Of a stretch of DNA of 64,000 nucleotides, positions 1-51,549 are shown piece by piece. Positions within the stretch are counted from its first letter, which is position 1, and every line of letters begins with the position of its first letter. The stretch covers positions 18,149,217 to 18,213,216 of the forward strand of contig OZ020246.1 of NCBI GenBank assembly GCA_963971285.1, in the 5' to 3' direction. The position numbers were made by a program, and so were the translations under genes. Origin of the DNA: Astropecten irregularis. Lineage: Eukaryota > Echinodermata > Asteroidea > Paxillosida > Astropectinidae. The notes beneath the pieces are model-generated. The model ran no database searches and had not been told where the DNA came from. It was given only the letters and a program-made list of their open reading frames with translations.

Positions 1-1252
1 TAATACACATACAGTGTAGCACGTCATAACGTGATTTATAAATCATTGCAGATTTCGCTAAGCAGGGCGCCTTAAGGTTCAAAAATTCAGATTGATGATC
101 TACACTGAAAATAAAAAGACACGTGTAATTTTGTTTTTCCTGAGTTTGACCCAGAAATGAGCAGGCAGATTTCAAAGATCGTGTTCAAAATATAGGATTG
201 GACAGCGCGCTGTCATATATAATACACATACAGTGTAGCACGTCATAACGTGATTTATAAATCATTGCAGATTTCGCTAAGCAGGGCGACTTCAGGTTCA
301 AAAATTCAGATATATGATCTACACTGAAAATAAAAAGACACGTGTAATTTTGTTTTCCCTGAATTTTCCCCAGAAGTGAGCAGGCAGTTTTCAAAGATCG
401 TGTTCAAAATATAGGATTAGACTGCGTGCTGCCATATATAATACACATACAGTGTAGCACGTCATAACGTGATTTATAAATCATTGCAGATTTCGCTAAG
501 CAGGGCGACTTCAGGTTCAAAGATTCAGATCTATGATGTAATTTTTTTTTCCTGAGTTTGCCCCCAAAAAATCAGCCAGATTTCAAAGATCGTGTTCAAA
601 ATATAGGATTGGACAGCGCGCTGTCATATATAATACACATACAGTGTAGCACGTCATAACGTGATTTATAAATCATTGCAGATTTCGCTAAGCAGGGCGA
701 CTTCAGGTTCAAAAATTCAGATATATGATCTACACTGAAAATAAAAAGACACGTGTAATTTTGTTTTTCCTGAATTTTCCCCAGAAATGAGCAGGCAGTT
801 TTCAAAGATCGTGTTCAAAATATAGGATTAGACTGCGTGCTGCCATATATAATACACATACAGTGTAGCACGTCATAACGTGATTTATAAATCATTGCAG
901 ATTTCGCTAAGCAGGGCGCCTTCAGGTTCAAAAATTCAGATTGATGATCTACACTGAAAATAAAAAGACACGTGTAATTTTGTTTTTCCTGAGTTTGACC
1001 CAGAAATGAGCAGGCAGTTTTCAAAGATCGTGTTCAAAATATAGGATGAGACTGCGTGCTGCCATATATAATACACATACAGTGTAGCACGTTATAACGT
1101 GATTTATAAATCATTGCAGATTTCGCTAAGCAGGGCGACTTCAGGTTCAAAAATTCAGATATATGATCTACACTGAAAATAAAAAGACACGTGTAATTTT
1201 GTTTTTTCTGAGTTTGCCCAAGAAATGAGCAGCCAGATGTCAAAGATCGTGT

Positions 1253-1653
1253 TCAAAATATAGGATTTGAAAAATCCTCATGCGCTTTAACAATGGTCCC
1301 ATGCACAAACCTATGCACGAAGGTGGGAACTAGGCCGAATCTTACTGACTATGACAAACATAGTCCATGACCATTTCATGTCACAACTCATTTTTGTCCA
1401 CGCAGGCTCTACGGGCTTGCCTATAAGCCTGGCATGCGCCAGTCGTCTGGCATAGTCAGTGACATATGGTCAAGTTCCCAGCCTTCGTAATATGGTTTGT
1501 ACATGGGCTCATTGCTAAAGCGCGTTAGGATTTTTTTTAGGGGGAGGATTTCGCTACGCAGGGCGACTTCAGTTTCAAAGATTCAGATCTATGATGTAAT
1601 TTTTTTTTCCTGAGTTTGCCCCCAAAAAAGCAGCCAGATTTCAAAGATCGTGT
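1253..1653. repeat. Foldback-bearing satellite unit, copy 1 (reference description)
   Basis: This 401-bp unit starts like a monomer (TCAAAATATAGGATT), then carries a foldback element at about 1271-1534, then resumes monomer sequence at GGATTTCGCTACGCAGGGCG. About 90 bp of the ordinary monomer, including both palindromes, are missing. The foldback arms match over roughly 90 bp with small gaps: the left arm begins AAATCCTCATGCGCTTTA and continues through CCCATGCACAAACC, ACGAAGG, GGGAACT and ACTGACTATG. The reverse complement of the right arm reads AAATCCTAACGCGCTTTA, CCCATGTACAAACC, ACGAAGG, GGGAACT and ACTGACTATG. The centre, about 80 bp, has further small hairpins. It looks like a non-autonomous inverted-repeat DNA transposon captured by the satellite. 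It is preceded by a c monomer and followed by d. Confidence 0.9.
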
Positions 1654-2965
1654 TCAAAATATAGGATTGGACAGCGCGCTGTCATATATAATACACATAC
1701 AGTGTAGCACGTCATTACGTGATTTATAAATCATTGCAGATTTCGCTAAGCAGGGCGACTTCAGGTTCAAAAATTCAGATATATGATCTACACTGAAAAT
1801 AAAAAGACACGTGTAATTTTGTTTTTCCTGAATTTTCCCCAGAAATGAGCAGGCAGTTTTCAAAGATCGTGTTCAAAATATAGGATTCGACTGCGTGCTG
1901 CCATATATAATACACATACAGTGTAGCACGTCAAAACGTGATTTATAAATCATTGCAGATTTCGCTAAGCAGGGCGAATTCAGGTTCAAAAATTCAGATA
2001 TATGATCTACACTGAAATTAAAACACACGTGTAATTTTGTTTTTCCTGAGTTTGCCCAAGAAATGAGCAGGCAGTTTTCAAAGATCGTGTTCAAAATATA
2101 GGATTAGACTGTGTGCTGCCATATATAATACACAAACAGTGTAGCACGTCATAACGTGATTTATAAATCATTGCAGATTTCGCTAAGCAGGGGCCTTCAG
2201 GTTGAAAAATTCAGATTGATGATCTACACTGAAAATAAAAAGACAGGTGTAATTTTGTTTTTCCTGAGTTTGACCCAGAAATGAGCAGGCAGATTTCAAA
2301 GATCGTGTTCAAAATATAGGATTGGACAGCGCGCTGTCATATATAATACACATACAGTGTAGCACGTCATAACGTGATTTATAAATCATTGCAGATTTCG
2401 CTAAGCAGGGCGACTTCAGGTTCAAAAATTCAGATATATGATCTACACTGAAAATAAAAAGACACGTGTAATTTTGTTTTCCCTGAATTTTCCCCAGAAG
2501 TGAGCAGGCAGTTTTCAAAGATCGTGTTCAAAATATAGGAATAGACTGCGTGCTGCCATATATAATACACATACAGTGTAGCACGTCATAACGTGATTTA
2601 TAAATCATTGCAGATTTCGCTAAGCAGGGCGCCTTAAGGTTCAAAAATTCAGATTGATGATCTACACTGAAAATAAAAAGACACGTGTAATTTTGTTTTT
2701 CCTGAGTTTGACCCAGAAATGAGCAGGCAGATTTCAAAGATCGTGTTCAAAATATAGGATTGGACAGCGCGCTGTCATATATAATACACATACAGTGTAG
2801 CACGTTATAACGTGATTTATAAATCATTGCAGATTTCGCTAAGCAGGGCGACTTCAGGTTCAAAAATTCAGATATATGATCTACACTGAAAATAAAAAGA
2901 CACGTGTAATTTTGTTTTTCCTGAGTTTGCCCAAGAAATGAGCAGCCAGATGTCAAAGATCGTGT

Positions 2966-3367
2966 TTAAAATATAGGATTTGAAACATCCTCATGCGCTT
3001 TAACAATGGTCCCATGCACAAACCTATGCACGAAGGTGGGAACTAGGCCGAATCTTACTGACTATGACAAACATAGTCCATGACCATTTCATGTCACAAC
3101 TCATTTTTGTCCACGCAGGCTCTAAGGGCTTGCCTATAAGCCTGGCATGCGCCAGTCGTCTGGCATAGTCAGTGACATATGGTCAAGTTCCAAGCCTTCG
3201 TAATATGGTTTGTACATGGGCTCATTGCTAAAGCGCGTTAGGATTTTTTTTAGGGGGAGGATTTCGCTACGCAGGGCGACTTCAGTTTCAAAGATTCAGA
3301 TCTATGATGTAATTTTTTTTTTCCTGAGTTTGCCCCCAAAAAAGCAGCCAGATTTCAAAGATCGTGT
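2966..3367. repeat. Foldback-bearing satellite unit, copy 2
   Basis: This 402-bp unit belongs to the variant group reading TTTGAAACATCC at the left arm and AAGTTCCAAGCC near the right arm. It carries a private CTCTAAGGG. Confidence 0.88.
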
Positions 3368-5118
3368 TCAAAATATAGGATTGGACAGCGCGCTGTCATA
3401 TATAATACACATACAGTGTAGCACGTCATTACGTGATTTATAAATCATTGCAGATTTCGCTAAGCAGGGCGACTTCAGGTTCAAAAATTCAGATATATGA
3501 TCTACACTGAAAATAAAAAGACACGTGTAATTTTGTTTTTCCTGAATTTTCCCCAGAAATGAGCAGGCAGTTTTCAAACATCGTGTTCAAAATATAGGAT
3601 TAGACTGCGTGCTGCCATATATAATACACATACAGTGTAGCACGTCATAACGTGATTTATAAATCATTGCAGATTTCGCTAAGCAGGGCGCCTTAAGGTT
3701 CAAAAATTCAGATTGATGATCTACACTGAAAATAAAAAGACACGTGTAATTTTGTTTTTCCTGAATTTTCCCCAGAAATGAGCAGGCAGTTTTCAAAGAT
3801 CGTGTTCAAAATATAGGATTAGACTGCGTGCTGCCATATATAATACACATACAGTGTAGCACGTCATAACGTGATTTATAAATCATTGCAGATTTCGCTA
3901 AGCAGGGCGCCTTCAGGTTCAAAAATTCAGATTGATGATCTACACTGAAAATAAAAAGACACGTGTAATTTTGTTTTTCCTGAGTTTGACCCAGAAATGA
4001 GCAGGCAGATTTCAAAGATCGTGTTCATAATATAGGATTGGACAGCACGCTGTCTTATATATTACACATACAGTGTAGCACGTCATAACGTGATTTATAA
4101 ATCATTGCAGATTTTGCTAAGCAGGGCGACTTCAGGTTCAAAAATTTAGATATATGATCTACACTGAAAATAAAAAGACCCGTGTAATTTTATTTTCCCT
4201 GAATTTTCCCCAGAAATGAGCAGGCAGTTTTCAAAGATCGTGTTCAAAATATAGGATTCGACTGCGTGCTGCCATATATAATACACATACAGTGTAGCAC
4301 GTCAAAACGTGATTTATAAATCATTGCAGATTTCGCTAAGCAGGGCGAATTCAGGTTCAAAAATTCAGATATATGATCTACACTGAAATTAAAACACACG
4401 TGTAATTTTGTTTTTCCTGAGTTTGCCAAAGAAATGAGCAGGCAGTTTTCAAAGATCGTGTTCAAAATATAGGATTAGACTGTGTGCTGCCATATATAAT
4501 ACACAAACAGTGTAGCACGTCATAACGTGATTTATAAATCATTGCAGATTTCGCTAAGCAGGGCGCCTTCAGGTTGAAAAATTCAGATTGATGATCTACA
4601 CTGAAAATAAAAAGACAGGTGTAATTTTGTTTTTCCTGAGTTTGACCCAGAAATGAGCAGGCAGATTTCAAAGATCGTGTTCAAAATATAGGATTGGACA
4701 GCGCGCTGTCATATATAATACACATACAGTGTAGCACGTCATAACGTGATTTATAAATCATTGCAGATTTCGCTAAGCAGGGCGACTTCAGGTTCAAAAA
4801 TTCAGATATATGATCTACACTGAAAATAAAAAGACACGTGTAATTTTGTTTTTCCTGAGTTTGACCCAGAAATGAGCAGGCAGATTTCAAAGATCGTGTT
4901 CAAAATATAGGATTGGACAGCGCGCTGTCATATATAATACACATACAGTGTAGCACGTTATAACGTGATTTATAAATCATTGCAGATTTCGCTAAGCAGG
5001 GCGACTTCAGGTTCAAAAATTCAGATATATGATCTACACTGAAAATAAAAAGACACGTGTAATTTTGTTTTTCCTGAGTTTGCCCAAGAAATGAGCAGCC
5101 AGATGTCAAAGATCGTGT

Positions 5119-5520
5119 TCAAAATATAGGATTTGAAAAATCCTCATGCGCTTTAACAATGGTCCCATGCACAAACCTATGCACGAAGGTGGGAACTAGG
5201 CCGAATCTTACTGACTATGACAAACATAGTCCATGACCATTTCATGTCACAACTCATTTTTGTCCACGCAGGCTCTACGGGCTTGCCTATAAGCCTGGCA
5301 TGCGCCAGTCGTCTGGCATAGTCAGTGACATATGGTCAAGTTCCCAGCCTTCGTAATATGGTTTGTACATGGGCTCATTGCTAAAGCGCGTTAGGATTTT
5401 TTTTAGGGGGAGGATTTCGCTACGCAGGGCGACTTCAGTTTCAAAGATTCAGATCTATGATGTAATTTTTTTTTTCCTGAGTTTGCCCCCCAAAAAGCAG
5501 CCAGATTTCAAAGATCGTGT
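5119..5520. repeat. Foldback-bearing satellite unit, copy 3
   Basis: This 402-bp unit has the common TTTGAAAAATCC arm and is followed by a d monomer. Confidence 0.88.
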
Positions 5521-7051
5521 TCAAAATATAGGATTGGACAGCGCGCTGTCATATATAATACACATACAGTGTAGCACGTCATTACGTGATTTATAAATCA
5601 TTGCAGATTTCGCTAAGCAGGGCGACTTCAGGTTCAAAAATTCAGATATATGATCTACACTGAAAATAAAAAGACACGTGTAATTTTGTTTTTCCTGAAT
5701 TTTCCCCAGAAATGAGCAGGCAGTTTTCAAAGATCGTGTTCAAAATATAGGATTAGACTCCGTGCTGCCATATATTATACACATACAGTGTAGCACGTCA
5801 TAACGTGATTTATAAATCATTGCAGATTTCGCTAAGCAGGGCGCCTTAAGGTTCAAAAATTCAGATTGATGATCTACACTGAAAATAAAAAGACACGTGT
5901 AATTTAGTTTTTCCTGAATTTTCCCCAGAAATGAGCAGGCAGTTTTCAAAGATCGTGTTCAAAATATAGGATTCGACTGCGTGCTGCCATATATAATACA
6001 CATACAGTGTAGCACGTCAAAACGTGATTTATAAATCATTGCAGATTTCGCTAAGCAGGGCGAATTCAGGTTCAAAAATTCAGATATATGATCTACACTG
6101 AAATTAAAACACACGTGTAATTTTGTTTTTCCTGAGTTTGCCCAAGAAATGAGCAGGCAGTTTTCAAAGATCGTGTTCAAAATATAGGATTAGACTGTGT
6201 GCTGCCATATATAATACACAAACAGTGTAGCACGTCATAACGTGATTTATAAATCATTGCAGATTTCGCTAAGCAGGGGCCTTCAGGTTGAAAAATTCAG
6301 ATTGATGATCTACACTGAAAATAAAAAGACAGGTGTAATTTTGTTTTTCCTGAGTTTGACCCAGAAATGAGCAGGCAGATTTCAAAGATCGTGTTCAAAA
6401 TATAGGATTGGACAGCGCGCTGTCATATATAATACACATACAGTGTAGCACGTCATAACGTGATTTATAAATCATTGCAGATTTCGCTAAGCAGGGCGAC
6501 TTCAGGTTCAAAAATTCAGATATATGATCTACACTGAAAATAAAAAGACACGTGTAATTTTGTTTTCCCTGAATTTTCCCCAGAAGTGAGCAGGCAGTTT
6601 TCAAAGATCGTGTTCAAAATATAGGAATAGACTGCGTGCTGCCATATATAATACACATACAGTGTAGCACGTCATAACGTGATTTATAAATCATTGCAGA
6701 TTTCGCTAAGCAGGGCGCCTTAAGGTTCAAAAATTCAGATTGATGATCTACACTGAAAATAAAAAGACACGTGTAATTTTGTTTTTCCTGAGTTTGACCC
6801 AGAAATGAGCAGGCAGATTTCAAAGATCGTGTTCAAAATATAGGATTGGACAGCGCGCTGTCATATATAATACACATACAGTGTAGCACGTTATAACGTG
6901 ATTTATAAATCATTGCAGATTTCGCTAAGCAGGGCGACTTCAGGTTCAAAAATTCAGATATATGATCTACACTGAAAATAAAAAGACACGTGTAATTTTG
7001 TTTTTCCTGAGTTTGCCCAAGAAATGAGCAGCCAGATGTCAAAGATCGTGT

Positions 7052-7453
7052 TTAAAATATAGGATTTGAAACATCCTCATGCGCTTTAACAATGGTCCCA
7101 TGCACAAACCTATGCACGAAGGTGGGAACTAGGCCGAATCTTACTGACTATGACAAACATAGTCCATGACCATTTCATGTCACAACTCATTTTTGTCCAC
7201 GCAGGCTCTACGGGCTTGCCTATAAGCCTGGCATGCGCCAGTCGTCTGGCATAGTCAGTGACATATGGTCAAGTTCCAAGCCTTCGTAATATGGTTTGTA
7301 CATGGGCTCATTGCTAAAGCGCGTTAGGATTTTTTTTAGGGGGAGGATTTCGCTACGCAGGGCGACTTCAGTTTCAAAGATTCAGATCTATGATGTAATT
7401 TTTTTTTTCCTGAGTTTGCCCCCAAAAAAGCAGCCAGATTTCAAAGATCGTGT
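7052..7453. repeat. Foldback-bearing satellite unit, copy 4
   Basis: This is of the AACATCC variant group. It is unusual in being followed directly by an e monomer, the d monomer having been lost. Confidence 0.88.
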
Positions 7454-9642: not shown

Positions 9643-10044
9643 TCAAAATATAGGATTTGAAAAATCCTCATGCGCTTTAACAATGGTCCCATGCACAAAC
9701 CTATGCACGAAGGTGGGAACTAGGCCGAATCTTACTGACTATGACAAACATAGTCCATGACCATTTCATGTCACAACTCATTTTTGTCCACGCAGGCTCT
9801 ACGGGCTTGCCTATAAGCCTGGCATGCGCCAGTCGTCTGGCATAGTCAGTGACATATGGTCAAGTTCCCAGCCTTCGTAATATGGTTTGTACATGGGCTC
9901 ATTGCTAAAGCGCGTTAGAATTTTTTTTAGGGGGAGGATTTCGCTACGCAGGGCGACTTCAGTTTCAAAGATTCAGATCTATGATGTAATTTTTTTTTTC
10001 CTGAGTTTGCCCCCAAAAAAGCAGCCAGATTTCAAAGATCGTGT
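9643..10044. repeat. Foldback-bearing satellite unit, copy 5
   Basis: It carries the rare GCGTTAGAATTTT in the right arm, shared only with the unit at 13,510. Confidence 0.88.
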
Positions 10045-11795: not shown

Positions 11796-12197
11796 TCAAA
11801 ATATAGGATTTGAAAAATCCTCATGCGCTTTAACAATGGTCCCATGCACAAACCTATGCACGAAGGTGGGAACTAGGCCGAATCTTACTGACTATGACAA
11901 ACATAGTCCATGACCATTTCATGTCACAACTCATTTTTGTCCACGCAGGCTCTACGGGCTTGCCTATAAGCCTGGCATGCGCCAGTCGTCTGGCATAGTC
12001 AGTGACATATGGTCAAGTTCCCAGCCTTCGTAATATGGTTTGTACATGGGCTCATTGCTAAAGCGCGTTAGGATTTTTTTTAGGGGGAGGATTTCGCTAC
12101 GCAGGGCGACTTCAGTTTCAAAGATTCAGATCTATGATGTAATTTTTTTTTTCCTGAGTTTGCCCCCCAAAAAGCAGCCAGATTTCAAAGATCGTGT
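11796..12197. repeat. Foldback-bearing satellite unit, copy 6
   Basis: It has the common arm sequence and reads GCCCCCCAAAAAGCAG near its right end, like the units at 5119, 15,663 and 17,377. Confidence 0.88.
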
Positions 12198-13509: not shown

Positions 13510-13911
13510 TCAAAATATAGGATTTGAAAAATCCTCATGCGCTTTAACAATGGTCCCATGCACAAACCTATGCACGAAGGTGGGAACTAGGCCGAATCTT
13601 ACTGACTATGACAAACATAGTCCATGACCATTTCATGTCACAACTCATTTTTGTCCACGCAGGCTCTACGGGCTTGCCTATAAGCCTGGCATGCGCCAGT
13701 TGTCTGGCATAGTCAGTGACATATGGTCAAGTTCCCAGCCTTCGTAATATGGTTTGTACATGGGCTCATTGCTAAAGCGCGTTAGAATTTTTTTTAGGGG
13801 GAGGATTTCGCTACGCAGGGCGACTTCAGTTTCAAAGATTCAGATCTATGATGTAATTTTTTTTTTCCTGAGTTTGCCCCCAAAAAAGCAGCCAGATTTC
13901 AAAGATCGTGT
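13510..13911. repeat. Foldback-bearing satellite unit, copy 7
   Basis: It shares GCGTTAGAATTTT with the unit at 9,643 and has a private CCAGTTGTCTGG. Confidence 0.88.
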
Positions 13912-15662: not shown

Positions 15663-16064
15663 TCAAAATATAGGATTTGAAAAATCCTCATGCGCTTTAA
15701 CAATGGTCCCATGCACAAACCTATGCACGAAGGTGGGAACTAGGCCGAATCTTACTGACTATGACAAACATAGTCCATGACCATTTCATGTCACAACTCA
15801 TTTTTGTCCACGCAGGCTCTACGGGCTTGCCTATAAGCCTGGCATGCGCCAGTCGTCTGGCATAGTCAGTGACATATGGTCAAGTTCCCAGCCTTCGTAA
15901 TATGGTTTGTACATGGGCTCATTGCTAAAGCGCGTTAGGATTTTTTTTAGGGGGAGGATTTCGCTACGCAGGGCGACTTCAGTTTCAAAGATTCAGATCT
16001 ATGATGTAATTTTTTTTTTCCTGAGTTTGCCCCCCAAAAAGCAGCCAGATTTCAAAGATCGTGT
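15663..16064. repeat. Foldback-bearing satellite unit, copy 8
   Basis: It is the partner of the unit at 11,796 in the 3,867-bp duplication, with no private change seen by eye. Confidence 0.88.
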
Positions 16065-17376: not shown

Positions 17377-17778
17377 TCAAAATATAGGATTTGAAAAATC
17401 CTCATGCGCTTTAACAATGGTCCCATGCACAAACCTATGCACGAAGGTGGGAACTAGGCCGAATCTTACTGACTATGACAAACATAGTCCATGACCATTT
17501 CATGTCACAACTCATTTTTGTCCACGCAGGCTCTACGGGCTTGCCTATAAGCCTGGCATGCGCCAGTCGTCTGGCATAGTCAGTGACATATGGTCAAGTT
17601 CCCAGCCTTCGTAATATGGTTTGTACATGGGCTCATTGCTAAAGCGCGTTAGGATTTTTTTTAGGGGGAGGATTTCGCTACGCAGGGCGACTTCAGTTTC
17701 AAAGATTCAGATCTATGATGTAATTTTTTTTTTCCTGAGTTTGCCCCCCAAAAAGCAGCCAGATTTCAAAGATCGTGT
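17377..17778. repeat. Foldback-bearing satellite unit, copy 9
   Basis: It is followed by d and by an e monomer with the rare TTTAGTTTTTCC, as is the unit at 5,119. Confidence 0.88.
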
Positions 17779-19092: not shown

Positions 19093-19494
19093 TTAAAATA
19101 TAGGATTTGAAACATCCTCATGCGCTTTAACAATGGTCCCATGCACAAACCTATGCACGAAGGTGGGAACTAGGCCGAATCTTACTGACTATGACAAACA
19201 TAGTCCATGACCATTTCATGTCACAACTCATTTTTGTCCACGCAGGCTCTACGGGCTTGCCTATAAGCCTGGCATGCGCCAGTCGTCTGGCATAGTCAGT
19301 GACATATGGTCAAGTTCCAAGCCTTCGTAATATGGTTTGTACATGGGCTCATTGCTAAAGCGCGTTAGGATTTTTTTTAGGGGGAGGATTTCGCTACGCA
19401 GGGCGACTTCAGTTTCAAAGATTCAGATCTATGATGTAATTTTTTTTTTCCTGAGTTTGCCCCCAAAAAAGCAGCCAGATTTCAAAGATCGTGT
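19093..19494. repeat. Foldback-bearing satellite unit, copy 10
   Basis: This is of the AACATCC variant group and is followed by the order d, e, f, g, h, i as after 2,966. Confidence 0.88.
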
Positions 19495-22558: not shown

Positions 22559-22961
22559 TTAAAATATAGGATTTGAAACATCCTCATGCGCTTTAACAAT
22601 GGTCCCATGCACAAACCTATGCACGAAGGTGGGAACTAGGCCGAATCTTACTGACTATGACAAACATAGTCCATGACCATTTCATGTCACAACTCATTTT
22701 TGTCCACGCAGGCTCTACGGGCTTGCCTATAAGCCTGGCATGCGCCAGTCGTCTGGCATAGTCAGTGACATATGGCCCAAGTTCCCAGCCTTCGTAATAT
22801 GGTTTGTACATGGGCTCATTGCTAAAGCGCGTTAGGATTTTTTTTAGGGGGAGGATTTCGCTACGCAGGGCGACTTCAGTTTCAAAGATTCAGATCTATG
22901 ATGTAATTTTTTTTTTCCTGAGTTTGCCCCCAAAAAAGCAGCCAGATTTCAAAGATCGTGT
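22559..22961. repeat. Foldback-bearing satellite unit, copy 11
   Basis: This 403-bp unit is of the AACATCC group and has a private ATGGCCCAAGTTCCCAG. The change also removes a stop in the minus-strand frame, giving a chance 64-codon frame at 22,617-22,811. Confidence 0.88.
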
Positions 22962-26025: not shown

Positions 26026-26427
26026 TCAAAATATAGGATTTGAAAAATCCTCATGCGCTTTAACAATGGTCCCATGCACAAACCTATGCACGAAGGTGGG
26101 AACTAGGCCGAATCTTACTGACTATGACAAACATAGTCCATGACCATTTCATGTCACAACTCATTTTTGTCCACGCAGGCTCTACGGGCTTGCCTATAAG
26201 CCTGGCATGCGCCAGTCGTCTGGCATAGTCAGTGACATATGGTCAAGTTCCCAGCCTTCGTAATATGGTTTGTACATGGGCTCATTGCTAAAGCGCGTTA
26301 GGATTTTTTTTAGGGGGAGGATTTCGCTACGCAGGGCGACTTCAGTTTCAAAGATTCAGATCTATGATGTAATTTTTTTTTTCCTGAGTTTGCCCCCAAA
26401 AAAGCAGCCAGATTTCAAAGATCGTGT
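26026..26427. repeat. Foldback-bearing satellite unit, copy 12
   Basis: This is the last foldback unit before the long stretch of about 6.6 kb without one. Confidence 0.88.
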
Positions 26428-29400: not shown

Positions 29401-32400
29401 TATATGATCTACACTGAAAATAAAAAGACACGTGTAATTTTGTTTTTCCTGAGTTTGCCCAAGAAATGAGCAGGCAGTTTTCAAAGATCGTGTTCAAAAT
29501 ATAGGATTAGACTGTGTGCTGCCATATATAATACACATACAGTGTAGCACGTCATAACGTGATTTATAAATCATTGCAGATTTCGCTAAGCAGGGCGCCT
29601 TAAGGTTCAAAAATTCAGATTGATGATCTACACTGAAAATAAAAAGACACGTGTAATTTTGTTTTTCCTGAGTTTGACCCAGAAATGAGCAGGCAGATTT
29701 CAAAGATCGTGTTCAAAATATAGGATTGGACAGCGCGCTGTCATATATAATACACATACAGTGTAGCACGTCATAACGTGATTTATAAATCATTGCAGAT
29801 TTTGCTAAGCAGGGCGAGTTCAGGTTCAAAAATTTAGATATATGATCTACACTTAAAATAAAAAGACCCGTGTAATTTTGTTTTCCCTGAATTTTCCCCA
29901 GAAATGAGCAGGCAGTTTTCAAAGATCGTGTTCAAAATATAGGATTCGACTGCGTGCTGCCATATATAATACACATACAGTGTAGCACGTCAAAACGTGA
30001 TTTATAAATCATTGCAGATTTCGCTAAGCAGGGCGACTTCAGGTTCAAAAATTCAGATATATGATCTACACTGAAAATAAAAAGACACGTGTAATTTTGT
30101 TTTTCCTGAGTTTGCCCAAGAAATGAGCAGGCAGTTTACAAAGATCGTGTTCAAAATATAGGATTAGACTGTGTGCTGCCATATATAATACACATACAGT
30201 GTAGCACGTCATAACGTGATTTATAAATCATTGCAGATTTCGCTAAGCAGGGCGCCTTCAGGTTGAAAAATTCAGATTGATGATCTACACTGAAAATAAA
30301 AAGACACGTGTAATTTTGTTTTTCCTGAGTTTGACCCAGAAATGAGCAGGCAGATTTCAAAGATCGTGTTCAAAATATAGGATTGGACAGCGCGCTGTCA
30401 TATATAATACACATACAGTGTAGCACGTCATAACGTGATTTATAAATCATTGCAGATTTCGCTAAGCAGGGCGACTTCAGGTTCAAAAATTCAGATATAT
30501 GATCTACACTGAAAATAAAAAGACACGTGTAATTTTGTTTTCCCTGAATTTTCCCCAGAAGTGAGCAGGCAGTTTTCAAAGATCGTGTTCAAAATATAGG
30601 ATTAGACTGCGTGCTGCCATATATAATACACATACAGTGTAGCACGTCAAAACGTAATTTATAAATCATTGCAGATTTCGCTAAGCAGGGCGACTTCAGG
30701 TTCAAAAATTCAGATATATGATCTACACTGAAAATAAAAAGACACGTGTAATTTTGTTTTCCCTGAATTTTCCCCAGAAGTGAGCAGGCAGTTTTCAAAG
30801 ATCGTGTTCAAAATATAGGATTAGACTGCGTGCTGCCATATATAATACACATACAGTGTAGCACGTCATAACGTGATTTATAAATCATTGCAGATTTCGC
30901 TAAGCAGGGCGCCTTCAGGTTCAAAAATTCAGATTGATGATCTACACTGAAAATAAAAAGACACGTGTAATTTTGTTTTTCCTGAGTTTGACCCAGAAAT
31001 GAGCAGGCAGTTTTCAAAGATCGTGTTCAAAATATAGGATTCGACTGCGTGCTGCCATATATAATACACATACAGTGTAGCACGTCAAAACGTGATTTAT
31101 AAATCATTGCAGATTTCGCTAAGCAGGGCGACTTCAGGTTCAAAAATTCAGATATATGATCTACACTGAAAATAAAAAGACCCGTGTAATTTTGTTTTCC
31201 CTGAATTTTCCCCAGAAATGAGCAGGCAGTTTTCAAAGATCGTGTTCAAAATATAGGATTCGACTGCGTGCTGCCATATATAATACACATACAGTGTAGC
31301 ACGTCAAAACGTGATTTATAAATCATTGCAGATTTCGCTAAGCAGGGCGACTTCAGGTTCAAAAATTCAGATATATGATCTACACTGAAAATAAAAAGAC
31401 ACGTGTAATTTTGTTTTTCCTGAGTTTGCCCAAGAAATGAGCAGGCAGTTTTCAAAGATCGTGTTCAAAATATAGGATTAGACTGTGTGCTGCCATATAT
31501 AATACACATACAGTGTAGCACGTCATAACGTGATTTATAAATCATTGCAGATTTCGCTAAGCAGGGCGCCTTAAGGTTCAAAAATTCAGATTGATAATCT
31601 ACACTGAAAATAAAAAGACACGTGTAATTTTGTTTTTCCTGAGTTTGACCCAGAAATGAGCAGGCAGATTTCAAAGATCGTGTTCAAAATATAGGATTGG
31701 ACAGCGCGCTGTCATATATAATACACATACAGTGTAGCACGTCATAACGTGATTTATAAATCATTGCAGATTTTGCTAAGCAGGGCGAGTTCAGGTTCAA
31801 AAATTTAGATATATGATCTACACTGAAAATAAAAAGACCCGTGTAATTTTGTTTTCCCTGAATTTTCCCCAGAAATGAGCAGGCAGTTTTCATAGATCGT
31901 GTTCAAAATATAGGATTCGACTGCGTGCTGCCATATATAATACACATACAGTGTAGCACGTCAAAACGTGATTTATAAATCATTGCAGATTTCGCTAAGC
32001 AGGGCGACTTCAGGTTCAAAAATTCAGATATATGATCTACACTGAAAATAAAAAGACACGTGTAATTTTGTTTTTCCTGAGTTTGCCCAAGAAATGAGCA
32101 GGCAGTTTTCAAAGATCGTGTTCAAAATATAGGATTAGACTGTGTGCTGCCATATATAATACACATACAGTGTAGCACGTCATAACGTGATTTATAAATC
32201 ATTGCAGATTTCGCTAAGCAGGGCGCCTTCAGGTTGAAAAATTCAGATTGATGATCTACACTGAAAATAAAAAGACACGTGTAATTTTGTTTTTCCTGAG
32301 TTTGACCCAGAAATGAGCAGGCAGATTTCAAAGATCGTGTTCAAAATATAGGATTGGACAGCGCGCTGTCATATATAATACACATACAGTGTAGCACGTC

Positions 32401-32999: not shown

Positions 33000-33401
33000 T
33001 CAAAATATAGGATTTGAAAAATCCTCATGCGCTTTAACAATGGTCCCATGCACAAACCTATGCACGAAGGTGGGAACTAGGCCGAATCTTACTGACTATG
33101 ACAAACATAGTCCATGACCATTTCATGTCACAACTCATTTTTGTCCACGCAGGCTCTACGGGCTTGCCTATGAGCCTGGCATGCGCCAGTCGTCTGGCAT
33201 AGTCAGTGACATATGGTCAAGTTCCCAGCCTTCGTAATATGGTTTGTACATGGGCTCATTACTAAAGCGCGTTAGGATTTTTTTTTAGGGGGAGGATTTC
33301 GCTACGCAGGGCGACTTCAGTTTCAAAGACTCAGATCTATGATGTAATTTTTTTTTTCTGAGTTTGCCCCCAAAAAAGCAGCCAGATTTCAAAGATCGTG
33401 T
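33000..33401. repeat. Foldback-bearing satellite unit, copy 13
   Basis: It carries TATGAGCCTGG, ATTACTAAAGCG and AAAGACTCAG, shared with the unit at 36,872. It is the first copy followed by a k monomer. Confidence 0.88.
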
Positions 33402-34060: not shown

Positions 34061-34460
34061 TCAAAATATAGGATTTGAAAAATCCTCATGCGCTTTAACA
34101 ATGGTCCCATGCACAAACCTATGCACGAAGGTGGGAACTAGGCCGAATCTTACTGACTATGACAAACATAGTCCATGACCATTTCATGTCACAACTCATT
34201 TTTGTCCACGCAGGCTCTACGGGCTTGCCTATAAGCCTGGCATGCGCCAGTCGTCTGGCATAGTCAGTGACATATGGTCAAGTTCCCAGCCTTCGTAATA
34301 TGGTTTGTACATGGGCTCATTGCTAAAGCGCGTTAGGATTTTTTTTAGGGGGAGGATTTCGCTACGCAGAGCGACTTCAGTTTCAAAGATTCAGATCTAT
34401 GATGTAATTTTTTTTCCTGAGTTTGCCCCCCAAAAAGCAGCCAGATTTCAAAGATCGTGT
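34061..34460. repeat. Foldback-bearing satellite unit, copy 14
   Basis: It carries CGCAGAGCGAC, shared with the unit at 37,933. Confidence 0.88.
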
Positions 34461-34679: not shown

Positions 34680-34898
34680 TCAAAATATAGGATTGGACAG
34701 CGCGCTGTCATATATGATAAAAGTACAGTGTAGAACGTCATAACATGATTTATAAATCATTGCAGATTTCGCTAAGCAGGGCGCCTTCAGGTTCAAAAAT
34801 TCAGATTGATGATCTACACTGAAAATAAAAAGACACGTGTAATTTTGTTTTTCCTGAGTTTGACCCAGAAATGAGCAGGCAGTTTTCAAAGATCGTGT
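34680..34898. repeat. Hybrid satellite monomer at a duplication junction
   Basis: The left part matches the l subtype (ATATGATAAAAGTACAG, AACGTCATAACATG) as at 38,552. From the palindrome onward it matches the unit at 30,808 (GCGCCTTCAGG, GATTGATGATC). The switch falls within or next to TGATTTATAAATCAT at about 34,746-34,760, and 34,680 is exactly 3,872 bp right of 30,808. This is what an unequal exchange between an l monomer and a 30,808-type monomer would leave. Confidence 0.85.
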
Positions 34899-36871: not shown

Positions 36872-37273
36872 TCAAAATATAGGATTTGAAAAATCCTCAT
36901 GCGCTTTAACAATGGTCCCATGCACAAACCTATGCACGAAGGTGGGAACTAGGCCGAATCTTACTGACTATGACAAACATAGTCCATGACCATTTCATGT
37001 CACAACTCATTTTTGTCCACGCAGGCTCTACGGGCTTGCCTATGAGCCTGGCATGCGCCAGTCGTCTGGCATAGTCAGTGACATATGGTCAAGTTCCCAG
37101 CCTTCGTAATATGGTTTGTACATGGGCTCATTACTAAAGCGCGTTAGGATTTTTTTTTAGGGGGAGGATTTCGCTACGCAGGGCGACTTCAGTTTCAAAG
37201 ACTCAGATCTATGATGTAATTTTTTTTTTCTGAGTTTGCCCCCAAAAAAGCAGCCAGATTTCAAAGATCGTGT
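36872..37273. repeat. Foldback-bearing satellite unit, copy 15
   Basis: It is the duplicate of the unit at 33,000 in the 3,872-bp repeat. Confidence 0.88.
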
Positions 37274-37932
37274 TCAAAATATAGGATATGACCGCGCGCT
37301 GCCATATATAATACACATACAGTGCAGAACGTCATAATATGATTTATAAATCATTATAGATTTCGCTACGCAGGGCAACTTCAGGTTCAAATATTCAGAT
37401 ATATGATCTAGACTGAAAATAAAAAGACACGTGTAATTTTCTTTTTCCTGAGTTTGCCCCAGAAACGAGCAGGCAGATTTCAAAGATCGTGTTCAAAATA
37501 TAGGATTGGACAGCGCGCTGTCATATATGATAAAAGTACAGTGTAGAACGTCATAACATGATTTATAAATCATCAAAGAATTCGCTAAGCAGGGCGACTT
37601 CAGGTTCAAAAATTCAGATATATGATCTACATTGAAAATTAAAAGACACGTGAAATTTTGTTTTCCCTGAATTTTCCCCAGAAATGAGCAGGCAGTTTTC
37701 AAAGATCGTGTTCAAAATATAGGATTCGACTGCGTGCTGCCATATATAATACACATACAGTGTAGCACGTCAAAACGTGATTTATAAATCATTGCAGATT
37801 TCGCTAAGCAGGGCGACTTCAGGTTCAAAAATTCAGATATATGATCTACACTGAAAATAAAAAGACACACGTGTAATTTAGTTTTTCCTGAGTTTGACCC
37901 AGAAATGAGCAGCCAGATGTCAAAGATCGTGT

Positions 37933-38332
37933 TCAAAATATAGGATTTGAAAAATCCTCATGCGCTTTAACAATGGTCCCATGCACAAACCTATGCACGA
38001 AGGTGGGAACTAGGCCGAATCTTACTGACTATGACAAACATAGTCCATGACCATTTCATGTCACAACTCATTTTTGTCCACGCAGGCTCTACGGGCTTGC
38101 CTATAAGCCTGGCATGCGCCAGTCGTCTGGCATAGTCAGTGACATATGGTCAAGTTCCCAGCCTTCGTAATATGGTTTGTACATGGGCTCATTGCTAAAG
38201 CGCGTTAGGATTTTTTTTAGGGGGAGGATTTCGCTACGCAGAGCGACTTCAGTTTCAAAGATTCAGATCTATGATGTAATTTTTTTTCCTGAGTTTGCCC
38301 CCCAAAAAGCAGCCAGATTTCAAAGATCGTGT
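37933..38332. repeat. Foldback-bearing satellite unit, copy 16
   Basis: It is the duplicate of the unit at 34,061 in the 3,872-bp repeat. Confidence 0.88.
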
Positions 38333-40084: not shown

Positions 40085-40477
40085 TCAAAATATAGGATTT
40101 GAAAAATCCTCATGCGCTTTAACAATGGTGCCATGCACAAACCTATGCACAAAGGTGGGAACTAGGCCGAATCTTACTGACTATGACAAACATAGTCCAT
40201 GACCATTTCATGTCACAACTCATTTTTGTCCACGCAGGCTCTACGGGCTTGCCTATAAGCCTGGCATGCGCCAGTCGTCTGGCATAGTCAGTGACATATG
40301 GTCAAGTTCCCAGCCTTCGTAATATGGTTTGTAGATGGGCTCATTGCTAAAGCGCGTTAGGATTTTTTTTTAGGGGGAGGATTTCGCTACGCAGGGCGAC
40401 TTCAGTTTCAAAGATTCAGATCTATGATGTAATTTTTTTTTTTCTGAGTTTGCCCCCCAAAAAGCAGCCAGTCGTGT
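40085..40477. repeat. Foldback-bearing satellite unit, copy 17
   Basis: This 393-bp unit has private changes AATGGTGCCATG and GTAGATGGG. The usual ATTTCAAAGA is missing at its right end, where CAGCCA is joined straight to GTCGTGTTC. Confidence 0.87.
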
Positions 40478-41353
40478 TCAAAATATAGGATATGACCGCG
40501 CGCTGCCATATATAATACACATACAGTGCAGAACGTCATAATATGATATATAAATCATTATAGATTTCGCTAAGCAAGGCAACTTCAGGTTCAAATATTC
40601 AGATATATGATCTAGACTGAAAATAAAAAGACACGTGTAATTTTCTTTTTCCTGAGTTTGCCCCAGAAACGAGCAGGCAGATTTCAAAGATCGTGTTCAA
40701 AATATAGGATTGGACAGCGCGCTGTCATATATGATAAAAGTACAGTGTAGAACGTCATAACATGATTTATAAATCATCACAGAATTCGCTAAGCAGGGCG
40801 ACTTCAGGTTCAAAAATTCAGATCTATGATCTAGACTGAAAATAAAAAGACACGTGTAATTTTGTTTTCCCTGAATTTTCCCCAGAAATGAGCAGGCAGA
40901 TTTCAAAGATCGTGTTCAAAATATAGGATTGGACAGCGCGCTGTCATATATAATACACATACAGTGTAGCACGTCATAACGTGATTTATAAATCATTGCA
41001 GATTTCGCTAAGCAGGGCGACTTCAGGTTCAAAAATTCAGATATATGATCTACATTGAAAATAAAAAGACACGTGTAATTTTGTTTTTCCTGAATTTTCC
41101 CCAGAAATGAGCAGGCAGTTTTCAAAGATCGTGTTCAAAATATAGGATTCGACTGCGTGCTGCCATATATAATACACATACAGTGTAGCACGTCAAAACG
41201 TGATTTATAAATCATTGCAGATTTCGCTAAGCAGGGCGACTTCAGGTTCAAAAATTCAGATATATGATCTACACTGAAAATAAAAAGACACGTGTCATTT
41301 TGTTTTTCCTGAGTTTGTCCCAGAAATGAGCAGCCAGATGTCAAAGATCGTGT

Positions 41354-41754
41354 TCAAAATATAGGATTTGAAAAATCCTCATGCGCTTTAACAATGGTCC
41401 CATGCACAAACCTATGCACGAAGGTGGGAACTAGGCCGAATCTTACTGACTATGACAAACATAGTCCAGGACCATTTCATGTCACAACTCATTTTTGTCC
41501 ACGCAGGCTCTACGGGCTTGCCTATAAGCCTGGCATGCGCCAGTCGTCTGGCATAGTCAGTGACATATGGTCAAGTTCCCAGCCTTCGTAATATGGTTTG
41601 TACATGGGCTCATTGCTAAAGCGCGTTAGGATTCTTTTTAGGGGGAGAATTTTGCTACGCAGGGCGACTTCAGTTTCAAAGATTCAGATCTATGATGTAA
41701 TTTTTTTTTCATGAGTTTGCCCCCCAAAAAGCAGCCAGATTTCAAAGATCGTGT
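41354..41754. repeat. Foldback-bearing satellite unit, copy 18
   Basis: This 401-bp unit has the private changes GGATTCTTTTTAGG and GAGAATTTTGC and is followed by the shortened k monomer. Confidence 0.87.
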
Positions 41755-42815
41755 TCAAAATATAGGATATGCAGAACGTCATAATATGATATATAAATGG
41801 TTATAGATTTCGCTACGCAGGGCAACTTCAGGCTCAAATATTCAGATATATGATCTAGACTGAAAATAAAAAGACACGTGTAATTTTCTTTTTCCTGAGT
41901 TTGCCCCAGAAACGAGCAGGCAGATTTCAAAGATCGTGTTCAAAATATAAGATTGGACAGCGCGCTGTCATATATGATAAAAGTACAGTGTAGAACGTCA
42001 TAACATGATTTATAAATCATCACAGAATTCGCTAAGCAGGGCGACTTCAGGTTCAAAAATTCAGATCTATGATCTAGACTGAAAATAAAAAGACACGTGT
42101 AATTTTGTTTTTCCTGAGTTTGCCCAAGAAATGAGCAGGCAGTTTTCAAAGATCGTGTTCAAAATATAGGATTAGACTGCGTGCTGCCATATATAATACA
42201 CATACAGTGTAGCACGTCATAACGTTATTTATAAATCATTGCAGATTTCGCTAAGCAGGGCGCCTTCAGGTTGAAAAATTCAGATTGATGATCTACACTG
42301 AAAATAAAAAGACACGTGTAATTTTGTTTTTCCTGAGTTTGACCCATAAATGAGCAGGCAGATTTCAAAGATCGTGTTCAAAATATAGGATTGGACAGCG
42401 CGCTGTCATATATAATACACATACAGTGTAGCACGTCATAACGTGATTTATAAATCATTGCAGATTTCGCTAAGCAGGGCGACTTCAGGTTCAAAAATTC
42501 AGATATATGATCTACACTGAAAATAAAAAGACACGTGTAATTTTGTTTTCCCTGAATTTTCCCCAGAAGTGAGCAGGCAGTTTTCAAAGATCGTGTTCAA
42601 AATATAGGATTAGACTGCGTGCTGCCATATATAATACACATACAGTGTAGCACGTCAAAACGTGATTTATAAATCATTGCAGATTTCGCTAAGCAGGGCG
42701 ACTTCAGGTTCAAAAATTCAGATATATGATCTACAGTGAAAATAAAAAGACACGTGTAATTTTGTTTTTCCTGAGTTTGCCCAAGAAATGAGCAGCCAGA
42801 TGTCAAAGATCGTGT

Positions 42816-43217
42816 TCAAAATATAGGATTTGAAAAATCCTCATGCGCTTTAACAATGGTCCCATGCACAAACCTATGCACGAAGGTGGGAACTAGGCCG
42901 AATCTTACTGACTATGACAAACATAGTCCATGACCATTTCATGGCACAACTCATTTTTGTCCACGCAGGCTCTACGGGCTTGCCTATAAGCCTGGCATGC
43001 GCCAGTCGTCTGGCATAGTCAGTGACATATGGTCAAGTTCCCAGCCTTCGTAATATGGTTTGTACATGGGCTCATTGCTAAAGCGCGTTAGGATTTTTTT
43101 TTAGGGGGAGGATTTCGCTACGCAGGGCGACTTCAGTTTCAAAGATTCAGATCTATGATGTAATTTTTTTTTCCTGAGTTTGCCCCCAAAAAAGCAGCCA
43201 GATTTCAAAGATCGTGT
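42816..43217. repeat. Foldback-bearing satellite unit, copy 19
   Basis: It carries a private ATGGCACAACTC in the centre and is followed by k and l. Confidence 0.87.
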
Positions 43218-43874
43218 TCAAAATATAGGATATGACCGCGCGCTGCCATATATAATACACATACAGTGCAGAACGTCATAATATGATATATAAATCATTA
43301 TAGATTTCGCTACGCAGGGCAACTTCAGGTTCAAATATTCAGATATATGATCTAGACTGAAAATAAAAAGACACGTGTAATTTTCTTTTTCCTGAGTTTG
43401 CCTCAGAAACGAGCAGGCAGATTTCAAAGATCGTGTTCAAAATATAGGATTGGACAGCGCGCTGTCATATATGATAAAAGTACAGTGTAGAACGTCATAA
43501 CATGATTTATAAATCATCACAGAATTCGGTAAGCAGGGCGACTTCAGGTTCAAAAATTCATATATATGATCTAGACTGAAAATAAAAAGACACGTGTAAT
43601 TTTGTTTTCCCTGAATTATCCCCAGAAATAAGCAGGCAGATTTCAAAGATCGTGTTCAAAATATAGGATTGGACAGCGCGCTGTCATATATAATACACAT
43701 ACAGTGTAGCACGTCATAACGTGATTTATAAATCATTGCAGATTTCGCTAAGCAGGGCGACTTCAGGTTCAAAAATTCAGATATATGATCTACACTGAAA
43801 ATAAAAAGACGCGTGTAATTTTGTTTTTCCTGAGTTTGACCCAGAAATGAGCAGCCAGATGTCAAAGATCGTGT

Positions 43875-44274
43875 TCAAAATATAGGATTTGAAAAATCCT
43901 CATGCGCTTTAACAATGGTCCCATGCACAAACCTATGCACGAAGGTGGGAACTAGGCCGAATGTTACTGACTATGACAAACATAGTCCATGACCATTTCA
44001 TGTCACAACTCATTTTTGTCCTCGCAGGCTCTACGGGCTTGCCTATAAGCCTGGCATGCGCCAGTCGTCTGGCATAGTCAGTGACGTATGGTCAAGTTCC
44101 CAGCCTTCGTAATATGGTTTGTACATGGGCTCATCGCTAAAGCGCGTTAGGATTTTTTTTTAGGGGGAGGATTTCGCTACGCAGGGCGACTTCAGTTTCA
44201 AAGATTCAGATCTATGATGTAATTTTTTTCCTGAGTTTGCCCCCCAAAAAGCAGCCAGATTTCAAAGATCGTGT
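43875..44274. repeat. Foldback-bearing satellite unit, copy 20
   Basis: It carries private GTCCTCGCAGG, GACGTATGG and CTCATCGCTAAAG and is followed by k and a hybrid l monomer. Confidence 0.87.
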
Positions 44275-45150
44275 TCAAAATATAGGATATGACCGCGCGC
44301 TGCCATATATAATACACATACAGTGCAGAACGTCATAATATGATATATAAATCATTATAGATTTCGCTACGCAGGGCAACTTCAGGTTCAAATATTCAGA
44401 TATATGATCTAGACTGAAAATAAAAAGACACGTGTAATTTTCTTTTTCCTGAGTTTGCCCCAGAAACGAGCAGGCAGATTTCAAAGATCGTGTTCAAAAT
44501 ATAGGATTGGACAGCGCGCTGTCATATATGATAAAAGTACAGTGTAGAACGTCATAACATGATTTATAAATCATCACAGCATTCGCTGAGCAGGGCGCCT
44601 TCAGGTTGAAAAATTCAGATTGATGATCTACACTGAAAATAAAAAGACACGTGTAATTTTGTTTTTCCTGAGTTTGACCCAGAAATGAGCAGGCAGATTT
44701 CAAAGATCGTGTTCAAAATATAGGATTGGACAGCGCGCTGTCATATATAATACACATACAGTGTAGCACGTCATAACGTGATTTATAAATCATTGCAGAT
44801 TTCGCTAAGCAGGGCGACTTCAGGTTCAAAAATTCAGATATATGATCTACACTGAAAATAAAAAGACACGTGTAATTTTGTTTTCCCTGAATTTTCCCCA
44901 GAAGTGAGCAGGCAGTTTTCAAAGATCGTGTTCAAAATATAGGATTAGACTGCGTGCTGCCATATATAATACACATACAGTGTAGCACGTCAAAACGTGA
45001 TTTATAAATCATTGCAGATTTCGCTAAGCAGGGCGACTTCAGGTTCAAAAATTCAGATATATGATCTACAGTGAAAATAAAAAGACACGTGTAATTTTGT
45101 TTTTCCTGAGTTTGCCCAAGAAATGAGCAGCCAGATGTCAAAGATCGTGT

Positions 45151-45546
45151 TCAAAATATAGGATTTGAAAAATCCTCATGCGCTTTAACAATGGTCCCAT
45201 GCACAAACCTATGCACGAAGGTGGGAACTAGGCCGAATCTTACTGACTATGACAAACATAGTCCAGGACCATTTCATGTCACAACTCATTTTTGTCCACG
45301 CAGGCTCTACGGGCTTGCCTATAAGCCTGGCATGCGCCAGTCGTCTGGCATAGTCAGTGACATAATTTTTTTATGGTCAAGTTCCCCAATATACATGGGC
45401 TCATTGCTAAAGCGCGTTAGGATTTTTTTTAGGGGGAGGATTTCGCTACGCAGGGCGACTTCAGTTTCAAAGATTCAGATCTATGATGTAATTTTTTTTT
45501 CCTGAGTTTGCCCCAAAAAAGAGCAGCCTGATTTCAAAGATCGTGT
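45151..45546. repeat. Foldback-bearing satellite unit, copy 21 (rearranged right arm)
   Basis: The right arm is altered: GACATAATTTTTTTATGG replaces the usual GACATATGG, and the segment between AGTTCCC and ACATGGGCTC is shortened. It is the copy nearest the array edge and the most changed. Confidence 0.87.
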
Positions 45547-47250
45547 TCAAAATATAGGATATGACCGCGCGCTGCCATAATACACATACAGTGTAGAACG
45601 TCATAATATGATATATAAATCATTATAGATTTCGCTACGCAGGGCGACTTCAGGCTCAAATATTCAGATCTATGATCTAGACTGAAAATAAAAAGACACG
45701 TGTAATTTTCGTTTTCCTGAGTTTACCCCAGAAACGAGCAGGCAGATTTCAAAGATCGTGTTCAAAATATAGGATTGGACAGCGCGCTGTCATGATAAAC
45801 GTACAGTGTAGAACGTCATAACATTATATATAAATCATTACATAATTCGCTAAGCAGGGCGACTTCAGGTTCAAAAATTCAGATCTATGATCTAGACTGA
45901 AAATAAAAAGACACGTGTAATTTTGTTTTTCCTGAGTTTGCTCCAGAAATGAGCAGCCAGATTTCAAAGATCGTGGTCAAAATATAGGACTTGGCCGCGC
46001 GCTGCCAAATATGATACACATTATAGTGTAGAGCGTATTAACACGATATATAAATCATTAACGATTTCGCTACGCAGGGCGACTTCAGGTTGAAAAATTC
46101 AGATCTCCGATCTAGACTGAAAATAAAAAGACTCGTGTAATTGGAATTTTCCTCAGGTTGCCCCCCTAGAAACTAGCAGGCAGATTGCAAAGATTGTGTT
46201 CAAAATATAGGATTTTACAGCGCGTGTAAGAGAACGATGCAGCGTGATATATAAATTATCTCATATTTCACTTCAGTTTCAAAGATTCAGATCTATGATG
46301 TAATTTTTTTTCCTGAGTTTGCCCCGAAAAAGAGCAGCCAGATTTCAAAGATCGTGTTCAAAATATAGGATATGACCGCGCGCTGCCATATATAATACAC
46401 ATACAGTGCAGAACGTCATAATATGATATATAAATCATTATAGATTTCGCTACGCAGGGCAACTTCAGGCTCAAATATTCAGATATATGATCTAGACTGA
46501 AAATAAAAAGACACGTGTAATTTTCTTTTTCCTGAGTTTGCCCCAGAAACGAGCAGGCAGATTTCAAAGATCGTGTTCAAAATATAAGATTGGACAGCGC
46601 GCTGTCATATATGATAAAAGTACAGTGTAGAACGTCATAACATGATTTATAAATCATCACAGAATTCGCTAAGCAGGGCGACTTCAGGTTCAAAAATTCA
46701 GATCTATGATCTAGACTGAAAATAAAAAGACACGTGTAATTTTGTTTTTCCTGAGTTTGCTCCAGAAATGAGCAGCCGGATTTCAAAGATCGTGGTCAAA
46801 ATATAGGACTTGGCCGCGCGCTGCCAAATATGATACACATTATAGTGTAGAGCGTATTAACACGATATATAAATCATTAACGATTTCGCTACGCAGGGCG
46901 ACTTCAGGTTGAAAAATTCAGATCTCCGATCTAGACTGAAAATAAAAAGACTCGTGTAATTGGAATTTTCCTCAGGTTGCCCCCCTAGAAACTAGCAGGC
47001 AGATTGCAAAGATTGTGTTTAAAATATAGGATTTTACAGCGCGTGTAAGAGAACGATGCAGCAAAAATAAAAAGACTCGTGTATTTGGAATTTTGCTCAT
47101 TTTGCCCTAGAATTCTGAAGGTAGAATGAAAAGATTGTGATGAGATTGTACGACTTGACAGCGCGCTGCCATATTCATAATACACAGGGAACGACGCACC
47201 ATGATCTATAAATCATCACATACTACACTAAGTGGGCCCATTTCAAGTTT
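45547..47250. repeat. Decayed edge of the satellite array
   Basis: Monomers here are clearly more diverged (AGGACTTGGCCGCGCG, GATCTCCGATCTAGAC, ACTCGTGTAATTGGAA) and some are truncated. A fragment about 0.29 kb long (45,961-46,243) recurs at 46,780-47,062, an offset of 819 bp. Its right end falls in GAACGATGCAGC, where the first copy continues GTGATAT and the second jumps to AAAATAAAAAGAC. The last recognisable satellite motifs (GACAGCGCGCTGCCATAT and ATCTATAAATCATCACAT) lie at about 47,158-47,222. Beyond about 47,250 the monomer can no longer be followed. Confidence 0.85.
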
Positions 47251-51528: not shown

Positions 51529-51549
51529 AATTAGTATGACCGGCGTAGA

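Follow-up and report, generated by a model that had tools for sequence, protein, structure and literature searches.

How a mobile element comes to sit, again and again, inside the repeated blocks of a tandem satellite, and whether it does anything there, is the question raised by a stretch of chromosome 3 of the starfish Astropecten irregularis. The window, by which we mean the whole stretch of 64,000 nt that was analysed (C9:18,149,217-18,213,216), holds at positions 1-47,250, on the forward strand, the right part of an array of a 219-bp satellite that continues to the left of the window as far as about C9:18,121,714. Twenty-one units of this array carry a foldback element of about 265 bp that resembles a miniature inverted-repeat transposable element (MITE). 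We think it likely that this element is a passenger that was captured once in the satellite and was multiplied with it, and that the satellite itself spreads as modules of array plus flank. We propose no host function for the element and regard the array as heterochromatic DNA that is most likely neutral or selfish. The genome searched comprises 475.7 Mb in 168 sequences; the published genome note gives 475.80 Mb, 186 scaffolds, and 22 chromosomes. Among our sequence labels, C9 (28.81 Mb) is chromosome 3, C10 (28.06 Mb) chromosome 4, C12 (22.69 Mb) chromosome 6, C15 (21.66 Mb) chromosome 8, C19 (20.07 Mb) chromosome 12, C20 chromosome 13, C22 (16.46 Mb) chromosome 15, and C25 (14.44 Mb) chromosome 18; C8 is probably chromosome 2, and C1 is 39.04 Mb long.

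The satellite array and its order

Tandem Repeats Finder (TRF) reports a period of 219 bp, together with its multiple of 438 bp, in arrays over positions 1-47,033, and a scan for monomer-phase anchors found 197 of them between 173 and 47,007, all on the forward strand and none on the reverse strand. There are 97 distinct sequences among the 197 anchor-to-anchor segments, and average linkage clustering at about 4 edits sorted the segments into 44 clusters. Fifteen clusters have four or more members, 13 of them monomer subtypes and 2 element units, which bears out the claim of a sequence-only reading that at least eleven monomer subtypes are present. The unit of about 400 bp with a foldback element, described in the same reading, is likewise found inside this one-strand array: its 21 copies measure 402 bp (13 copies), 400 bp (3 copies), 401 bp (2 copies), 403 bp, and 396 bp, and one lies in a segment of 612 bp, within which an anchor was probably missed.

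That reading also held that in the left blocks the unit always stands directly after one monomer subtype, and that it is a fixed member of a higher-order repeat (HOR). Left of position 30,000, the first statement holds for 11 of 12 units, and all 11 copies of the subtype are followed by a unit; the first unit (at 1241) is the exception, and over the whole window 11 of 21 units follow this subtype. None of 10,000 random placements was as good, but this control ignores the common descent of HOR copies and therefore shows an order, not independent insertions. The second statement is too strong. Between successive element units lie 3 to 30 monomers, so that the order is HOR-like and no n-mer of constant size is seen in the window, and four stretches sampled on chromosome 6 (10.5 kb) contain 220/195-bp monomers and no element junctions. 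Block orders do recur in the window, with more identity between blocks than between neighbouring monomers, as in HORs; blocks repeat in places, and the strongest self-match beyond 1.1 kb is at an offset of 3,867 bp. Below 40 kb, the nearest copy of a monomer is on average 0.3-1.3 edits away in each bin, and the median distance to all is 12.6-14.8 edits. Divergence rises at the right edge, where the nearest copy of a monomer is 4.6 edits away at 40-45 kb and 21.9 at 45-48 kb, as expected at the border of an array. The family has the long head-to-tail arrays and the high copy number of satellite DNA. The analysis supports the reading of an invertebrate satellite with HOR-like order whose repeated blocks contain a captured inverted-repeat element.

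The window has no matches in Rfam. No earlier report of the 219-bp satellite was found among the titles and abstract openings listed for the open-access literature on starfish and echinoderm satellites, on MITE or foldback elements in satellites, and on HORs. The most conserved part of the monomer across the sampled arrays is at consensus positions of about 150-187, at ACTGAAAATAAAAAGACACGTG, and it resembles the element's own TACACTGAAAA ends. Judged by this likeness, the 219-bp monomer may itself contain transposon-derived sequence.

The captured element and its relatives

The element forms a long hairpin, with a DNA folding energy of -72.7 kcal/mol and a z-score of -12.3, against -1.1 for an ordinary monomer. 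It has relatives outside the satellite. Among 40 candidates scored against the copy L029, which is itself one of them, two fall in the array region of chromosome 4, and the rest are 85-90% identical and are scattered over many contigs. The terminal pattern of the element, with up to 3 mismatches, matches 3,257 places, satellite copies included. A short element with long inverted ends and many dispersed copies is what is understood by a MITE or foldback element, and its ends are suggested to lie near TACACTG.

Evidence on the number of captures comes from an unrooted tree of 71 rows (54 of them different), made up of 48 copies labelled as captured and 23 other copies. The captured set contains all 21 window copies, 6 copies from chromosome 4, and copies from 11 of 35 overlapping loci on chromosome 3 (14.4-14.85 Mb). 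All 49 satellite-borne copies, that is, the 48 labelled ones and L118, which was labelled as dispersed yet is located in the chromosome 4 satellite, fall into one group with a support of 100/99 and a long common branch. The nearest copies outside this group are L114 on chromosome 8 (C15) and L116 on chromosome 13 (C20). As the captured copies make up one group in the tree and share one insertion point, a single capture is the simplest reading.

All window copies are on the forward strand and were placed by the anchor scan and the tree, and the ends given here are approximate. The first, also the one placed by folding, is at 1271-1535 in the unit at 1241-1641. It is followed by copies at 2984-3248, 5137-5401, 7070-7334, 9661-9925, 11814-12078, 13528-13792, 15681-15945, 17395-17659, 19111-19375, 22577-22842, and 26044-26308, the twelfth copy, after which 30 monomers pass without an element. 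The remaining copies are at 33018-33282, 34079-34343, 36890-37154, 37951-38215, 40103-40367, 41372-41636, 42834-43098, 43893-44157, and 45169-45427, the last of these with small rearrangements in its right arm.

Two structural forms and a proposed route of capture

The captured element occurs in two forms. In the full form, the entire element stands where about 70 bp of the monomer are missing; units of this form are 402 bp long in the window, where they lack a further stretch of about 26 bp, and 428 bp long on chromosome 4. TTTGAA on the left side and a full right arm were found in 21 of 21 units in the window and in 6 of 6 on chromosome 4. The second form, found on chromosome 3 at 14.4-14.85 Mb and mostly 451/452 bp long, ends in a truncated right arm, after which a complete monomer follows. 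Units in the 35 chromosome 3 loci are 450-456 bp long, with one of 320 bp, and the array at 14.858 Mb also has a full-form unit at its left edge (L122). The left junctions of the two forms have two bases different: 53 of the 56 left junctions in the 35 loci read TTAAAA, 2 read TAAAAA, and 1 reads TTTGAA. When strict patterns were used for the right ends in the same loci, 12 were truncated, 2 were full, and the others matched neither pattern, so the link between left and right forms there rests on these few matches together with the unit lengths.

The most likely route to these forms starts with one dispersed foldback copy of about 265 bp, which would have inserted into one monomer directly behind GGATT, next to a 14-bp palindrome found in some monomers, and would have replaced about 70 bp of monomer on entry (cut-and-replace). 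The hybrid monomer would then have been carried along as a passenger and amplified through unequal exchange and block duplication, the same processes that may make the HOR-like order; it is the shared neighbours and the identical blocks that point to such co-amplification. For the truncated form, the probable origin is a switch where the right arm of the element and the monomer are alike over a short distance. For stretches picked by eye, the similarity at the switch point was reached by 8 of 2000 shuffles. The full form is probably the older of the two, because a full right arm could not be rebuilt from the truncated form. Finally, ectopic or segmental duplication probably carried the arrays, together with their common downstream flank, to numerous places on a small set of chromosomes.

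The array flank and a proposed spread of arrays

A sequence common to many arrays lies downstream of the satellite at 47,251-51,210 on the forward strand, the recurring part starting from 47,064. Among 40 candidates scored for homology, 14 other places are 87-91% identical over 1,427-1,463 bases, 3 more are 92-93% identical over 1.1-1.2 kb, and further places match partially or at 78-83%. Allowing up to 3 mismatches, a 29-base pattern from the flank was found at 30 places (16 forward and 14 reverse, with none for the control), only on C9, C10, C12, C15, C19, and C22. The array flanks L101 (C10:21.50 Mb) and L100 (C12:12.48 Mb) are 98.6-99.2% identical in three aligned pieces, a sign of recent exchange or duplication.

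The flank in the window contains two insertions, neither with an assigned strand. One, at about 48,527-48,650, is some 120 bp long with short inverted ends and is absent from the 9 other flanks compared, 2 of which have a different sequence there. The other, at 49,598-50,726, is a dispersed element of about 1.1 kb with 53-bp inverted ends, of which 38 near-full-length copies are found among the genome-wide matches listed, with 88-94% identity. A transposon terminus at 48,526, where homology breaks off in many copies, was considered and rejected, since the window has the ~120-bp insertion there and seven of nine copies run straight on; L093 and L094 have other sequence at this point, beyond which L101, the one followed, resumes. 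A common transposon end near 51,210 was likewise rejected as a single terminus, since copies diverge at different points beyond it. Of six right flanks set against the window, four reached about 51,210 and then diverged at differing points, L097 ended after about 136 bases, and L099 ended after about 910.

Could array and flank together move or reintegrate as one discrete unit, such as satellite circles inserting whole and leaving long direct repeats? We find this unlikely, but it has more than one observation in its favour. The satellite starts at about C9:18,121,714, and the preceding ~360 bp (L123:952-1312, ending at the satellite start) match positions 51,218-51,540 of the window, a direct repeat of about 0.33 kb on the forward strand (310 bp at 93% plus a 24-bp end piece). 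These repeats abut the left edge of the satellite and the right end of the flank, with about 79 kb of array and flank between them. A second array (14.722-14.858 Mb) is bounded by a weaker repeat, 80% identical over 222 bp, about 300 bp past its flank. In 6 of 6 chromosome 3 cases where this could be determined, the flank is on the same side of the array relative to the monomer strand. However, a third array (17.198-17.295 Mb) has no direct repeat, only an 82-bp inverted match, and sequence akin to the ~0.33-kb repeat is also present beside a fourth array (L056), which suggests that it may be a dispersed repeat. The flank ends, moreover, vary from copy to copy and do not form one terminus.

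A more specific version is that array and flank form an inserting module of about 79 kb that spreads over a subset of the chromosomes and leaves long direct repeats, with the hairpin aiding amplification or excision; we regard this as a long shot. If it were true, the module would be a satellite-based selfish unit. By flank and anchor places, the arrays on chromosome 3 span about 75-145 kb each, and those other than the present one about 86-145 kb, if they are continuous between their edges. We know of no satellite-bearing transposon as large as this module. At the left edge of another array, an apparent element of about 3.2 kb with matching inverted ends, as judged by eye, abuts the satellite (L086, C9:17,194,600-17,198,300), and its end recurs elsewhere.

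Single capture or repeated insertion

Several observations weigh against the account that we prefer, in which one captured copy was multiplied with the satellite and arrays then spread with their flank. No consistent target-site duplication was seen by eye among the element copies outside the captured set, and about 12 of these 23 copies have common outer flanks, again by eye, so the foldback may belong to a longer dispersed repeat. Gene conversion could also make the satellite-borne copies appear as one group. As to the spread, the three left edges compared (L086, L122, and L123) have unrelated flanks, while L056 has short pieces in common with L123, and the route by which arrays would have spread is drawn from few edges. 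On chromosome 18, an element outside the captured group (L113, C25:12,160,650-12,161,060) adjoins a degenerate monomer that resembles the 219-bp one (78% over 65 bp) and sits at nearly the same point of the monomer as the captured copies, which could mean a recurrent hotspot.

L113 and the existence of two junction types are what speaks for several independent insertions of one element family at the palindrome, later homogenised. We give this explanation little weight, as 49 of 49 satellite-borne copies in the tree belong to one group with a long shared branch, and gene conversion would mimic such a group only if it were strong across chromosomes.

Genome distribution and the centromere question

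A 29-base anchor with up to 2 mismatches has 35,644 matches genome-wide (12,454 plus 23,190), and a control pattern has none. At 219 bp per anchor, the family with all its monomers amounts to about 7.8 Mb, or about 1.6% of the genome. Matches to the left junction of captured units number 827 (0 for the control), about 1 per 43 anchors, compared with 21 per 197 in the window. Places by chromosome are those of the matches listed, and a chromosome without a listed match may still hold the satellite; by this measure, there are two exact anchor matches on C1, none on C2-C8, and others from C9 onward.

A centromeric or pericentromeric role, proposed from the window alone, is not supported by this distribution. 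Centromeric satellites would be expected at one dominant site per chromosome on most chromosomes, and here there are several sites per chromosome. Several separate arrays lie on chromosome 3 between 14.41 and 18.20 Mb, and 14 samples of 1.5 kb (13 between the blocks and 1 to their left) and one of 4 kb contained no member of the 219-bp family. One centromere per chromosome was therefore rejected as an explanation, since arrays megabases apart on the same chromosomes, with non-satellite samples between them, do not support a single centromere. One of the samples (L074, C9:16,600,000-16,601,500), between the 14.86- and 17.2-Mb blocks, is filled by a 54-bp tandem repeat in 27.6 copies, which is a rival candidate for a centromere.

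In a rival view, the array serves as the centromere or inner pericentromere on chromosome 3, with a functional part for the hairpin unit, for example as a dyad-rich site that aids CENP-A loading. The arrays are indeed found toward the middle of chromosomes (14.4-18.2 of 28.8 Mb on chromosome 3, 13.7 of 28.1 Mb on chromosome 4, and 11.8-12.3 of 22.7 Mb on chromosome 6), the family is abundant, and the element has a strong hairpin. The chromosome 3 blocks at 14.4-14.86 Mb are on the reverse strand and those listed at 17.2-18.2 Mb on the forward strand, with the exception of an edge on the reverse strand at 17.447 Mb. Still, we consider this role quite improbable. Besides the separate chromosome 3 arrays and the lack of exact anchors on C2-C8, with two on C1, flank matches extend over 7.8-21.5 Mb of chromosome 4, 10.1-17.5 Mb of chromosome 6, and 5.0-17.1 Mb of chromosome 8. 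The CENP-B core was found in 0 of 592 monomers, exactly or with 1 mismatch (355 of these monomers are from overlapping loci). Arrays at many sites of few chromosomes, together with the missing CENP-B core, make a centromere role unlikely as a general rule. The strings 'centromer' and 'satellite' are absent from the genome note of the species.

An assembly artefact is extremely unlikely: long tandem arrays are hard to assemble and the published assembly has a contig N50 of 0.9 Mb and 786 gaps, but it was made from PacBio Sequel IIe reads with a QV of 56.8, no N occurs in the window, and separate arrays on chromosomes 3 and 4 show the same types of junction in both orientations, which speaks against a chimera at this locus.

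Comparison with known systems

The closest precedent in the available literature is in the nematodes Meloidogyne chitwoodi and M. fallax, in which an unrelated satellite was inserted into HOR satellites by cut-and-paste replacement (PMC3694981). There, as in the starfish, the HOR arrays are those of an invertebrate, and part of a monomer has given way to a foreign repeat that now belongs to the HOR. The Meloidogyne invader is a satellite monomer that replaced a segment of equivalent length at a CENP-B-box-like motif (PMC3694981), whereas the starfish invader is a dispersed foldback, longer than the ~70 bp that would have been lost, and the CENP-B core was not found. Bivalve satellites such as Cg170 form networks with transposable elements by cut-and-replace (PMC5139131). 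Like the starfish satellite, they are joined to transposon sequence, with monomer segments replaced and, for one satellite, junctions tied to a palindrome; they are mostly short arrays or parts of Helitrons, and the accessible text of that study describes no large HOR array with a multiplied captured element (PMC5139131). The same paper mentions an ant satellite DNA with an integrated MITE, again an invertebrate case, and the mention does not include amplification as a HOR member. Further links between MITEs and satellites are noted in a review (PMC5615363), and a MITE-like element with a tandem core is described in a scallop (PMC5874043).

The diverged monomers of similar size in multi-monomer blocks are a likeness to human alpha satellite HORs (PMC10153287). 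Unlike alpha satellite, the starfish blocks vary widely in length, and the starfish arrays are smaller as well as dispersed and include a unit derived from a transposon. Most of the species covered by that survey are stated to have no rich HORs, and its table includes the spiny starfish Marthasterias (PMC10153287). In our view, the A. irregularis array belongs to a familiar type of repeat evolution, of which it is an unusual case. Its value would lie in a single capture that can be traced through a HOR-like satellite, from one entry to two structural descendants, on at least two chromosomes and in arrays with a common flank. An echinoderm family with HOR-like blocks that makes up about 1.6% of the genome is also a useful comparison to primates, and the common flank makes the movement of whole arrays testable.

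Other features

Beyond the array flank, a 31-bp minisatellite of about 42 copies is at positions 54,139-55,467 of the window. One of the six open reading frames (ORFs) of the flank had a match in Pfam, and beside the minisatellite, at about 53,866-54,066 on the reverse strand, the sequence matches the AIG2-like family PF13772 (E value, 1.4e-8) and is probably an exon of a host gene. The mitochondrial contig of the assembly has COX1, ND4L, and COX2 on one strand and, upstream, ND1 on the other (ND4L, COX2, and ND1 identified by eye), an order typical of starfish; gene order and genetic code led to a starfish and away from amphioxus, an initial candidate for the source. Elsewhere in the assembly, a COX1-like frame without TGA codons at C131:32,162-33,484 may come from a bacterial contaminant, and C25:9,951,047-9,952,018 holds a COX1 stretch with 7 TGA codons that may be a nuclear mitochondrial insertion.

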